A stretch of 64,000 bases of DNA from assembly GCA_905479985.1 (NCBI GenBank), contig CAJQOM010000016.1, forward strand, positions 1 to 64,000. The letters are read 5' to 3'. Positions 39,461 to 44,087 of this stretch are shown here, piece by piece. The position numbers were made by a program, and so were the translations under genes. Within the stretch, counting starts at the first letter, position 1, and each line of letters begins with the position of its first letter. Under the pieces are notes generated by a model, which was not told the origin of the DNA, did not search any database, and saw only the letters and a list, made by a program, of their open reading frames with translations. This stretch comes from an uncultured Gammaproteobacteria bacterium (lineage in GTDB: Bacteria > Pseudomonadota > Gammaproteobacteria > Nitrosococcales > Methylophagaceae).

Positions 39461-39490
39461 ATTATAAGCATAACCTAACTTAATATTCAA
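39461..39490 (-). promoter_or_regulatory. Promoter of the two small ORFs
   Basis: On the minus strand TTGAAT and a perfect TATAAT (39466-39461) are 18 bp apart. The -35 element overlaps the last codons of the HD-GYP gene. The spacing and hexamers fit a sigma-70 promoter. Confidence 0.55.
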
Positions 39491-40638
39491 TCCTCATTGA
39501 ACCGCCATACAGAGCGTCTGTCAAAAGTCACAAGCGGATCATCACTTAACAAGATTTTACGTACTTTATTGCCACCTAATGACGTATTACGTTGAATTGG
39601 TAACCTCAAGTCACCTTTCCCAGGTTTGTAACAAATATGGACGATGGGGGTATCCGCATTCTCACCACATTTTGTCACAACACCTATCTCACCACTAATC
39701 AACTGAACGATTAACCCTGGCGGATAAAACCCCAATTCCTTAATAAACAGGGTTGCAATAACAGGCAAAACCGTTTGACCATCATCCAACAAAATATCTC
39801 TTAAGATCCCTTTATGTAACAAAGGTTGACGATAAGCCCTCGGTGACATCCGGGCACAGTACTGATCTGCCAATGCAATCAACTGTGCTTCTACAGGATA
39901 CTGTGATCCAGCAAATTTGTTTGGGTAACCTGTTCCATTGACCTTTTCATGATGAGCAAGAACACATTTTAACCACAGTCGATCTGTCACATTCGCCTGT
40001 TGCAGCATCGCAACGCTTTGTCTTGGATGATTAAAAATCTGTTTCTTCTGTTCTTCTGTTAAGGGTGTTTCTTGTTGAAATAATATTTCTTGTAGGCCAA
40101 TCATCGCAAGATTCATCGTCAAAGCAGCCGCAATGACTGATGCATGGTTTTCCGCTTCGAGACCTCTTTTCCCTGCCATTAACCCAGATAACACAGCCAC
40201 ATCAACCGAATGTTTTATCGGGTAGCTACCCTTTTCTAATATGAATAAAGAAGCTAAAGCCGCACTGGCATCTCGAAAACAAGCACGTTGAATGTCCTCG
40301 ACCAACGACATAATTTCATCCGTGAAATTAACATCAGGGTTATCGTTATTCGCCAATGTAATCGCCAATCGACTTGTCACATCTTCTAAAACTTTAAACG
40401 GAGAGAAGTCTTTCGGTTTAGATACTACTTCCACAACAGTCGGCTTTTCAACAGGTAGCCCCATTTCAGCCACTAAACCATAAGCACCATGGGCCAGCAG
40501 ACGTTCAACTTGCGATTCTGACTGAATCACGAAATCTTTTTTAATCAGGAATGTACCGTTTCGATCATAAATTGGCCAAGGCAATGGCACACCTATCGTA
40601 ATGTCTTCAACTTTTAATCTTATCAAACCATCTGTCAT
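39487..40638 (-). CDS. DUF3391/HD-GYP-type protein with degenerate catalytic site
   Basis: A 383-residue protein of the cyclic-di-GMP phosphodiesterase family. An N-terminal DUF3391-like segment (about 1-70, IRLKVEDITIGVPL) is followed by the HD-GYP domain. The His of IKHSVDVAVL, FNHPRQS, AHHEKVNGTGYP and ALADQY are kept. However, the hallmark H-D-I-G-K position reads ALTMNLAMIGL, so the metal-binding His-Asp pair is lost. It is probably a c-di-GMP binding or signalling protein without full hydrolase activity. A good ribosome site (AAGGCGACGG) precedes the start. The nearby riboswitch and the GGDEF gene make a c-di-GMP context. Confidence 0.85.
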   Translation of the reverse strand: MTDGLIRLKVEDITIGVPLPWPIYDRNGTFLIKKDFVIQSESQVERLLAHGAYGLVAEMGLPVEKPTVVEVVSKPKDFSPFKVLEDVTSRLAITLANNDNPDVNFTDEIMSLVEDIQRACFRDASAALASLFILEKGSYPIKHSVDVAVLSGLMAGKRGLEAENHASVIAAALTMNLAMIGLQEILFQQETPLTEEQKKQIFNHPRQSVAMLQQANVTDRLWLKCVLAHHEKVNGTGYPNKFAGSQYPVEAQLIALADQYCARMSPRAYRQPLLHKGILRDILLDDGQTVLPVIATLFIKELGFYPPGLIVQLISGEIGVVTKCGENADTPIVHICYKPGKGDLRLPIQRNTSLGGNKVRKILLSDDPLVTFDRRSVWRFNED

Positions 40639-40932: not shown

Positions 40933-41820
40933 ATGGCCACTGGCATTTTTGCAGTACTCGATGATATTGCTGTTTTATTAGATGACACCGCAGTTTTAAC
41001 CAAAATCGCGGCCAAAAAAACCGCGGGATTACTCGGTGATGATTTGGCCGTCAACGCTGAAAAAGCCACTGGATTTAGTGCCTCCCGTGAGTTACATGTT
41101 TTATGGGCTATCACCAAAGGCTCAGTCGTTAATAAACTGATCATTTTGCCCTTAGCCTTTTTAATCAGTGCTTTTATACCGCAACTCATCGTTCCTATTC
41201 TGCTGTTAGGTGGTGCCTATTTAAGCTATGAAGGCGCAGAAAAAATAATCGAATGGCTATTCCCCCATGCACATCTGCACAATGAAAAACAACAACAAGT
41301 TTCACTAACACCAGAACAAAAAGAAACGTTAGAAAACACAAAAATAAAAGATGCCATTCGGACCGATTTTATCCTCTCTATCGAGATCATTGTGATCACA
41401 TTATCAACCGTCATTGACCAAACATTAACGATGCAAATCATCGTCGTCAGTCTTATTGCGTTATTAGCAACGGTGGGCGTCTACGGCTTAGTCGCTTTAT
41501 TAGTTCGCATGGATGATATGGGACTATCGCTCATCAACAAATCAAAAACGCAACAAGGCAAATTAGCGCGCATCACCAGTTCGACAGGCCACCATTTAAT
41601 TGCCGCATTACCCTATATTATCCGCATTTTAGGTGTCATAGGCACCATTGCTATGCTACTCGTCGGTGGTGGCATGTTTGTTCATAACATCGAATGGGTA
41701 CATCAGCTCTTTCATAGCTTACTTAGCATTGCTGCTGAGTTGTTAACCGGGATAATCGTAGGCACACTCAGTGTTTTCGTCATGCAGTTTCTTCATTCAA
41801 AAAAGGCATTACCGATATAA
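40933..41820 (+). CDS. DUF808 family inner-membrane protein (YedI-like)
   Basis: A 295-residue membrane protein. The start MATGIFAVLDDIAVLLDDTA and GLLGDDLAVNAEKATGF are the DUF808 signature. Several hydrophobic segments follow (IILPLAFLISAFIPQLI, EIIVITLSTVI, VSLIALLATVGVYGLVALLV, and two more). Function of the family is unknown. AAAGGAAAA precedes the ATG. Its 3' side holds a C/G hairpin, a c-di-GMP-type aptamer and a terminator, all transcribed in the same direction. The 294 bp upstream holds an AT-rich region and a 9-bp inverted repeat (40724-40750), nothing else I can assign. Confidence 0.88.
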   Translation: MATGIFAVLDDIAVLLDDTAVLTKIAAKKTAGLLGDDLAVNAEKATGFSASRELHVLWAITKGSVVNKLIILPLAFLISAFIPQLIVPILLLGGAYLSYEGAEKIIEWLFPHAHLHNEKQQQVSLTPEQKETLENTKIKDAIRTDFILSIEIIVITLSTVIDQTLTMQIIVVSLIALLATVGVYGLVALLVRMDDMGLSLINKSKTQQGKLARITSSTGHHLIAALPYIIRILGVIGTIAMLLVGGGMFVHNIEWVHQLFHSLLSIAAELLTGIIVGTLSVFVMQFLHSKKALPI

Positions 41821-41893
41821 CCCGAAGATAATGAGAATCAAACTGAAACGTCGATGTACAAAAATCTGTAACCATTTGTTAAAAAAGAATTGA

Positions 41894-41913
41894 CCCCCCC
41901 CTCTTTGGGGGGG
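41894..41913. repeat. Pure C/G stem-loop ahead of the riboswitch
   Basis: A run of eight C (41894-41901) faces seven G (41907-41913) across a five- or six-base loop (CTCTTT). It sits just before the aptamer, 73 bp after the DUF808 gene. It has no U-run; a strong roadblock or processing hairpin is possible. Confidence 0.55.
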
Positions 41914-41917
41914 TAGA

Positions 41918-42010
41918 TTGGCACCAACTCTTTAGCCAAACTTGGTGTGAACCAAGGACGGAAAGCCTCTGGTCTTTATGTCTCACGATTTAAAGATGGC
42001 TGGGCTGCTT
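41918..42010 (+). ncRNA. Candidate c-di-GMP-I (GEMM-I) riboswitch aptamer, orphan
   Basis: The core reads AGCCAAAC, then a hairpin CTTGG/CCAAG (41941-41956), then GGACGGAAAGCCTCTGG (41956-41972), then a second hairpin TCTTTA/TAAAGA (41973-41996), then TGGCTGGGCTGC. Order, spacing and conserved bases match the GEMM-I class: AAAC before P2, GACGxAAAGCC between the hairpins, and the G-rich closing strand. The outer strands pair (AGCC with GGCT, GGCA with TGCT). Six bases after the aptamer begins a perfect terminator stem, and no coding sequence follows on this strand. One variant base is seen (GACGG for GACGC). Confidence 0.82.
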
Positions 42011-42014
42011 TTTT

Positions 42015-42053
42015 AAACAAATAAACCTGCCAATGGCAGGTTTATTTGTTTTT
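42015..42053. terminator. Long bidirectional terminator after the riboswitch and rep
   Basis: AACAAATAAACCTGCC (from 42016) pairs perfectly with GGCAGGTTTATTTGTT (to 42050), loop three bases, with T-runs on both sides. It ends the riboswitch transcript on the plus strand and rep on the minus strand. In the riboswitch context it could be the expression platform. Confidence 0.9.
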
Positions 42054-42074
42054 AACGACTCGAAAAATCATTCT

Positions 42075-44087
42075 CTATTTCAGCATACCCCGTATATTCG
42101 ATAAATGGGCTTTGCCTCTTTCCTTACGCTCTTCTGGATCAACTTGGCTCTTTTCTGTCGTCCAGATCAAGTCATCTGCTGGTAATTCACGTAAAAAACG
42201 GCTCTCCTCACAATCGACTTTTTCACCATAACGTTTTCGCGTGTTTGCCATCGTAAAAATTAAGCTACGCTGCGCCCGTGTAATCCCAACATAAGCCAAA
42301 CGCCGCTCTTCTTCAATACCACCTTCCTCAATACTCACACGGTGTGGCAAGATCTCTTCTTCCATACCGATAATCGTGACATGCGGAAACTCCAACCCCT
42401 TAGCCGCATGCAAAGTCATCAAATGGACAGCATCTTCCTGATTCTCATCTGCTTGCCTATCTAGGATATCCATCAACGTTAAACGCGCCGCAATATCACC
42501 AAGACTCATCTCTTCAGTATCTTTTTCAATAATACGGCTGATCCAAATTAATAGCTCTTCAACATTTTCCATCCGGCGCATGGCTTGATCAGGGTCGCCT
42601 GTCACTTCTTCCAACCAAGCGCGGTAATCGATTTCTTCGATCATATCGCGAATCGCTTCCATCAAATCACCCCGCTTCGCACGATCAGCAATATCGACTA
42701 ACCAACGCGTAAAGTGCTCAAGATGCCCCATCGCCTTGGCTGATAATTTCTCAGATAAGCCCATTTCAAAACAAGCGCCAAATAAACTGGTTTTCCGATC
42801 CGCGGCATAATGTCCTAACGCTTGTAAAGTCGTCGACCCAATCCCACGACGGGGCGTATTAATCACCCGTAAAAATGCATTATCATCATCTTGATTTGCC
42901 AATAGCCTCAGATAAGACATGATATCTTTAACTTCAACACGCGAGAAAAATGACGTACCGCCTGTTAAAAAATAAGGCACATTGTGCTCACGTAAAATAC
43001 GTTCTATCGGTCGAGACTGATGATTACTCCGATATAAAATCGCATAATCCTTAAAGTCAGCCTGATGTTTCAGCTTATGATAAAGCAGTTCTGACACCAC
43101 CTTCTCAGACTCATGATCTTCATCACGACAGCCAATCACCCGAATCGCATCGCCTTCGCCCATCGCACTCCATAAGTTTTTTTCAAACAAATGTGGATTA
43201 TGACTAATCAAGCCATTAGCAACCCGTAAAATACGGCCCATCGAACGATAGTTTTGCTCAAGCTTAATCATCTTAAGTCGAGGAAAATCTTCTTTTAACT
43301 GTGCCAAATTTTCAGGCCGTGCCCCCCGCCAAGAATACACCGACTGATCATCATCTCCGACGACGGTTAGTGCCTCACGAATGCCCACCAACTGTTTGAC
43401 CAATTCATACTGACAGCCATTGGTATCTTGATATTCATCCACCAGAAGATAATGAATTTTTGCTTGCCAACGCTTTAACGCATCATCTTTATCTCGGAAC
43501 AATAAAACGGGCATTAATATTAAGTCATCGAAATCAACCCCGTTGTAGGCTTTCAATGCGTCGACATAGCGCTGATAGACTTTAGCAGCGGCCACTTGCT
43601 CTGGCTCTTCCGCTATTTTCATTGCTTGCTCAGGCAAGATGAGCTGGTTTTTCCATTCCGAAATTTGCCACTGGCATTTCTCAGCATGCTCACTATCAGC
43701 AGCAAAGTCGCGCCCCATCAAGTCACGTAATACCGCCAAACTGTCTTGTGCATCAAAAATAGAAAAGCCACTGCGATAGCCAATATGAGCAAACTCTTTT
43801 CGTAAAATGGTTAACCCGAGATTATGAAACGTCGACACCATCAAACCACGGCTTGATACATCACGAGATGCCATCAATTCCGATACCCGGCTCTTCATTT
43901 CGCGTGCGGCTTTATTAGTGAACGTCACCGCTGCAATATTGCGAGCTTTAATCCCACATTGCTCAATCAAATAAGCAATTTTCCGCGTGATCACTCGTGT
44001 CTTACCACTACCCGCGCCGGCTAATACCAACAATGGCCCGTCGACATGACGCGCAGCTTCACGCTGTTCAGGGTTAAGATCTTGCAC
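42075..44087 (-). CDS. rep: ATP-dependent DNA helicase Rep
   Basis: UvrD/Rep-type 3'-5' helicase that helps forks pass obstacles. The 670 residues include motif I AGAGSGKTRVITRK (about 22-35), motif II DEYQDTN, GDDDQSVYSWRGA (motif III), QNYRSMGRIL (IV), TLHAAKGLEFPHV (V) and YVGITRAQRSL (VI). All motifs are intact and length is typical for Rep rather than UvrD. It converges with the riboswitch region and shares its terminator. Upstream 130 bp contains TTTGCAATTGCAAA, a short palindrome of unknown use. Confidence 0.95.
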   Translation of the reverse strand: MQDLNPEQREAARHVDGPLLVLAGAGSGKTRVITRKIAYLIEQCGIKARNIAAVTFTNKAAREMKSRVSELMASRDVSSRGLMVSTFHNLGLTILRKEFAHIGYRSGFSIFDAQDSLAVLRDLMGRDFAADSEHAEKCQWQISEWKNQLILPEQAMKIAEEPEQVAAAKVYQRYVDALKAYNGVDFDDLILMPVLLFRDKDDALKRWQAKIHYLLVDEYQDTNGCQYELVKQLVGIREALTVVGDDDQSVYSWRGARPENLAQLKEDFPRLKMIKLEQNYRSMGRILRVANGLISHNPHLFEKNLWSAMGEGDAIRVIGCRDEDHESEKVVSELLYHKLKHQADFKDYAILYRSNHQSRPIERILREHNVPYFLTGGTSFFSRVEVKDIMSYLRLLANQDDDNAFLRVINTPRRGIGSTTLQALGHYAADRKTSLFGACFEMGLSEKLSAKAMGHLEHFTRWLVDIADRAKRGDLMEAIRDMIEEIDYRAWLEEVTGDPDQAMRRMENVEELLIWISRIIEKDTEEMSLGDIAARLTLMDILDRQADENQEDAVHLMTLHAAKGLEFPHVTIIGMEEEILPHRVSIEEGGIEEERRLAYVGITRAQRSLIFTMANTRKRYGEKVDCEESRFLRELPADDLIWTTEKSQVDPEERKERGKAHLSNIRGMLK

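Follow-up and report, generated by a model that had tools for sequence, protein, structure and literature searches.

Results

The analysed window is a stretch of 64,000 nucleotides belonging to a 2.2-Mb genome in 46 contigs (G000). At the locus under study, a gene for a DUF808 protein (40,933–41,820, + strand; PF05661, 1.7e-94), syntenic in the relatives G003 and G016, lies upstream, and the rep DNA helicase gene (42,075–44,087, − strand; TIGR01074, above cut-off) converges on it from the other side; both neighbours lie outside the RNA unit described here. Our literature search, with the terms used, found nothing on DUF808 function. A covariance-model search with RF01051, for which the gathering threshold of 35 bits was required over the whole model, gave a match of 53.2 bits at positions 41,925–42,012 (+ strand) that covers all model positions 1–87 and starts about 105 nt past the DUF808 stop codon on the same strand. 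This c-di-GMP-I aptamer contains the core GACGGAAAGCC, two hairpins, and the closing strand GGCTGGGCTGC, as an earlier note on this DNA had read from the letters; the RF01051 search that the note had proposed as a check is significant, and the aptamer is an ordinary member of RF01051. A phage origin was rejected because there is no similar phage record. Beside DUF808, an HD-GYP-like protein is encoded at 39,487–40,638 (− strand; HD_5, 61 bits). It keeps an HHExxxGxGYP-like motif and, by eye, has TMN at the expected position of the HD motif, and is possibly an inactive c-di-GMP phosphodiesterase.

In the alignment, the equivalents of the ligand-contacting residues are kept (G41935 for G20, A41962 for A47, and C42008 for C92), and C41936–G41961 corresponds to the 21–46 pair; these equivalents follow the numbering of the Vc2 aptamer. 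Because position 20 is G and not A, c-di-GMP rather than cGAMP is indicated as the ligand, and cGAMP was rejected. G20A is the change that confers cGAMP binding (PMC6274999). Judged by these residues, c-di-GMP is very probably the ligand of the stand-alone RNA.

Immediately 3′ of the aptamer, at 42,015–42,051 (+ strand), AAACAAATAAACCTGCC-AAT-GGCAGGTTTATTTGTTT forms an intrinsic terminator with a 17-bp stem, an AAT loop, and a U-rich tail (−23.1 kcal/mol, z −7.0; equally stable shuffles, 0 of 200). For comparison, the 50 nt 3′ of 84 other family aptamers have a mean of −3.8 (sd 2.25) versus −23.1 in the window, and the three most stable of these segments in the family set belong to the three intact stand-alone copies described below. 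The terminator is probably bidirectional and common to the convergent rep gene. Rfam matches to STnc370 and OrzO-P over the terminator were discarded, as they are far under cut-off and caused by the hairpin. Inspection by eye revealed no alternative partner for the terminator stem in the aptamer and no anti-terminator, and regulated termination was rejected on this ground. On the + strand, no gene lies 3′ of the aptamer-terminator, where the longest ORF has 61 aa and a TTG start. The earlier note had thus correctly described a terminator directly behind the aptamer and, with rep on the opposite strand, no gene behind it. A cis-acting riboswitch is a 5′ leader that controls a gene; here the terminator follows at once and the next gene is convergent, and as a gene the window copy falls outside that definition. 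An ordinary riboswitch leading an unrecognised short peptide gene could be imagined, because an ATG inside the aptamer (approximately 41,979) opens a frame with a stop 12 codons on. This is extremely unlikely: no ribosome site belonging to this frame was seen by eye, its later codons coincide with the aptamer consensus, G003 and G016 have not kept it, and no well-started + strand ORF follows.

A putative sigma-70 promoter, which extends the account of the earlier note, is found at 41,890–41,919 (+ strand), with the −35 box TTGACC (41,890–41,895), an 18-nt spacer, and the −10 box TAGATT (41,914–41,919). It would place the transcription start at approximately 41,925, which is the first base of the aptamer. 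Because one such match is expected by chance in 500 nt (1 found versus 1.0 expected), the evidential weight lies in the recurring position of the promoter and not in the match. The distance from the start of TTGACC to the aptamer is 35 nt in G000 and 34 nt in both G003 and G012, with −10 boxes TAGATT, TATATT, and TAAGTT at spacings of 18, 17, and 17 nt, respectively. In G016, TTGACC is 51 nt from the aptamer and TATAAT is found at a poorer spacing of 19 nt. Sequence inspection also showed that the promoter spacer of the window copy is filled by a GC-rich dyad, ACCCCCCCC-TCTTT-GGGGGGGT (C8-TCTTT-G7; 41,893–41,914). A pattern search for CCCCC-N4-8-GGGGG found only three places in the 2.2-Mb genome; in G003 and G012, the same place of the spacer holds a shorter dyad, GACC..GGTC. 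Homopolymer tracts such as C8/G7 can slip, altering promoter strength, and the dyad may be an operator or a slippage-prone tract. Comparable C-rich/G-rich dyads occur upstream of the leader riboswitches of several relatives (e.g., L133, L143, L157, and L167). In addition, many c-di-GMP-controlled CTERM-like genes of the genus are preceded by a dyad resembling GTACYAAAGTAC, located upstream of the leader aptamer (e.g., L130, L138, L144, L146, and L161) and possibly a shared operator of these genes.

The genome holds two other c-di-GMP-I copies (L001 and L003), each directly before a gene for an exported protein with a PEP/VPLPA-CTERM-like tail, a label that is descriptive only because the matches to tail profiles fall under the curated cut-offs. 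In L001, CATTTTTC, immediately 3′ of the aptamer, is able to base-pair with GGAAAATG at the ribosome site, an arrangement suggesting that c-di-GMP controls the translation of CTERM-like genes. Across the family, an ORF of 100 aa or more starts at most 60 nt from 79 of the 88 readable aptamers, and a P-x-PA-type tail ends 42 of the 46 complete ORFs behind them. The nine exceptions comprise four stand-alone units, two aptamers with a gene start at a distance of approximately 90 nt, and three whose ORFs are broken or unclear. Since nearly all 88 family copies and both other copies in this genome are leaders, the window copy is an outlier. The family member G065 has c-di-GMP aptamers at 82,780, 1,405,158, 1,406,079, and 1,407,020, near the c-di-GMP riboswitch positions 82867, 1405201, 1406231, and 1407172 published for Methylophaga nitratireducenticrescens GP59 (PMC12530212), and on this basis the family is probably Methylophagaceae. 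A class-wide look for gene-less copies, in which approximately 90 aptamers were screened by a rough ORF criterion, yielded two candidates, L234 and L272. L234 (G200:C41:56414-56497, + strand) is a strong c-di-GMP-I aptamer (83.9 bits) with a convergent 456-aa ORF and no clear co-directional gene, and is a further candidate stand-alone copy. In L272 (G241:C45:9610-9697, − strand), the aptamer precedes a stretch complementary to the aptamer's own 3′ half, and a T-run comes next; the longest ORF nearby is on the opposite strand, so that it resembles a terminator-type switch without an obvious gene.

The same aptamer-terminator unit is present at the same locus in three relatives, G003, G016, and G012, the last of them partly decayed. 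In G003 (L033) and G016 (L035) it lies between DUF808 and the convergent genes ahpF-ahpC-rep, while in G012 (L172/L352) it adjoins ahpF and DUF808 is gone. In G010, DUF808 is present and the unit is absent, with ahpF and ahpC between its empty place and rep. In the window, ahpF and ahpC are absent between the RNA and rep (42,052–42,075), unlike in G003, G016, and G010. The unit is independent of either neighbour, as it is kept without DUF808 in G012, where it is decaying, and without adjacent ahpFC in G000. A covariance model built from the four units (R1) scored them at 152.6, 148.4, 122.8, and 114.4 bits, which is to be expected since it was trained on them, and all other loci of the family at 72 bits or less. 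In a tree of rep, the four carriers group with the non-carriers G010 and G018 with moderate support (87/84); strongly supported nodes enclose this group, a clade of G000, G003, and G012 is supported, and the four carriers fall within one part of the genus tree.

Domain counts in 24 genomes showed many GGDEF domains in all but one (14–56 in the relatives tested). The exception is G018, a genus member of 1.5 Mb and 99% completeness, in which no GGDEF domain was detected; a ligand for the RNA is therefore not expected in this genome, and the unit is also absent. G012, with the decayed copy, has 14 GGDEF domains, the fewest apart from G018. As a test of c-di-GMP dosage, these counts are only suggestive. 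The unit is dispensable, because G010, with its 24 GGDEF domains, does without it. In G012, aptamer pairs are broken, the terminator now folds poorly, and the HD-GYP-like homologue close by matches as three separate pieces. The other riboswitch of this genome stands before a gene that is interrupted by an early stop. In this single case, it looks like the joint decay of one c-di-GMP-linked set.

To assess selection, we compared the unit with silent sites of its neighbours. The aptamers of G000 and G003 are identical at 76 of 84 positions (90.5%), versus 48.2% of the four-fold degenerate sites of rep (249 sites) and 56.3% of those of DUF808 (103 sites). Against G016, the aptamer is 82–83% identical and four-fold sites 30–34%. 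The aptamer is conserved beyond the silent sites of the neighbouring genes. In the terminator, three pairs have changes on both sides across the four genomes (for instance, CCTGCC/GGCAGG to CCCGCC/GGCGGG). The structure statistics of these four sequences are modest, the observed pairing being reached by 19 of 500 shuffles, and those on covariation are weak because only three examples are intact; therefore the selection argument leans mainly on the silent-site contrast.

These comparisons bear on two other options of the earlier note, a 3′-UTR switch of DUF808 and a relic. As a 3′-UTR element, the aptamer would let c-di-GMP modulate the 3′ end or stability of the DUF808 mRNA; this would agree with its co-directional place behind the DUF808 stop codon, with the shared gene order of G003 and G016, and with the lack of a recognised strong terminator belonging to DUF808 ahead of it. 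However, a putative promoter sits at the aptamer edge in three genomes, and unit and DUF808 each occur without the other (in G012 and G010, respectively), which makes this option very unlikely. As a relic, the unit would be the aptamer and terminator left when the coding part behind a leader riboswitch of an exported-protein gene was deleted. All other copies of G000 are leaders, several pairs and a proper terminator are gone from the copy in G012, and G010 has no copy, but aptamer and terminator are intact in G000, G003, and G016 although silent sites are largely randomised, and the promoter spacing is kept in G000 and G003. The relic option fits the apparently decaying G012 copy, but for the window it is distinctly unlikely. 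Thus, the silent-site contrast and the persistence of the unit without DUF808 or ahpFC argue against both a 3′-UTR switch and a dead relic here. The stand-alone unit may well have arisen, nevertheless, by gene loss from a leader riboswitch.

Discussion

With moderate confidence, we propose that the locus is an autonomous small-RNA gene and that its RNA acts most likely as a c-di-GMP buffer or sponge. An aptamer, a terminator, no gene behind them, and conservation in three intact loci are what the locus offers, and its layout makes transcription as a separate unit likely. RNA polymerase would start at the promoter at 41,890–41,919, transcribe from approximately 41,925, and stop at the hairpin ending at 42,051, giving an RNA of approximately 127 nt that consists of the c-di-GMP-I aptamer and the terminator. 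Having neither an expression platform nor a cis gene, this RNA would act by binding c-di-GMP itself, and would lower or delay the free c-di-GMP that reaches the riboswitches of PEP/VPLPA-CTERM-like genes and other receptors. It would thus compete for the same ligand with leader riboswitches such as L001. Of the options in the earlier note, a ligand-sensing small RNA is the one that our data favour, as the promoter-aptamer-terminator unit is conserved and outlives either neighbour.

The linker and the P3 loop vary among the four copies, which therefore share neither an antisense seed nor any other conserved unpaired sequence outside the aptamer. Given this, the lack of a gene, and the lack of alternative pairing of the terminator, it is the ability to bind the ligand that selection would keep, which leads us to propose a ligand buffer, a role likewise proposed for merRNA of Bdellovibrio bacteriovorus. 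A sponge requires many copies per cell, which is a point against this proposal. The RNA could instead act in trans, with c-di-GMP altering an mRNA-pairing stretch, a protein-binding site, or the stability of the RNA. The unit is a predicted autonomous RNA with a U-rich terminator, and a Listeria SAM riboswitch is a precedent (cited in PMC3627812), but the four copies share only the aptamer consensus and the terminator, with no alternative partner of its stem seen by eye in the aptamer, and we consider a trans-acting role unlikely. If the RNA is transcribed separately and binds c-di-GMP, we lean towards buffering over an interaction with a partner RNA or protein. A bolder scenario, possible but doubtful, is that a dedicated buffer RNA evolved independently of merRNA, in a lineage of marine gammaproteobacteria, by detachment of a leader riboswitch from its gene and sets the threshold for the remaining c-di-GMP riboswitches, and that slippage of the C8/G7 promoter tract could toggle the buffer.

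The use of free-standing aptamers as cellular ligand buffers has been proposed for merRNA. If our reading is true, a second, short, and conserved example in a distant lineage would make the buffer idea directly testable, with the ordinary c-di-GMP riboswitches of the host bacteria as internal reporters. It would also suggest that such RNAs escape notice because each aptamer is annotated as a cis element.

With c-di-GMP-I riboswitches (GEMM-I, RF01051; sub-model RF03167, c-di-GMP-I-GGC), the window copy shares sequence, structure, the GNRA (GUGA) loop, and G20/A47/C92; it differs in having no downstream gene or expression platform and an unconditional terminator. SreA and Rli55 of Listeria are trans-acting riboswitch RNAs. 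Like the predicted window RNA, they carry a riboswitch aptamer in a short separate RNA, but they respond to other ligands and are linked to an mRNA or protein target, whereas none is known for the window RNA. In Methylophaga, c-di-GMP riboswitches precede PEP/VPLPA-CTERM genes (PMC12530212). These are of the same aptamer class, probably from the same bacterial family, and of the same type as the two other copies of this genome, but they are gene leaders, while the window copy has no gene. The earlier note placed known GEMM-I elements in 5′ leaders; to this there is one published exception, merRNA, a stand-alone c-di-GMP-I RNA without downstream ORF that was proposed in 2013 as a c-di-GMP reservoir (PMC3627812). 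It has 445 nt, is massively expressed in the attack phase, and was reported from no genus other than Bdellovibrio; the authors of the proposal described the reservoir model as yet to be validated (PMC3627812). The predicted window RNA would match this architecture, although it would be shorter (approximately 127 versus 445 nt) and is encoded in a distant lineage at a different locus. Common descent is not indicated, and merRNA would be its closest functional analogue.
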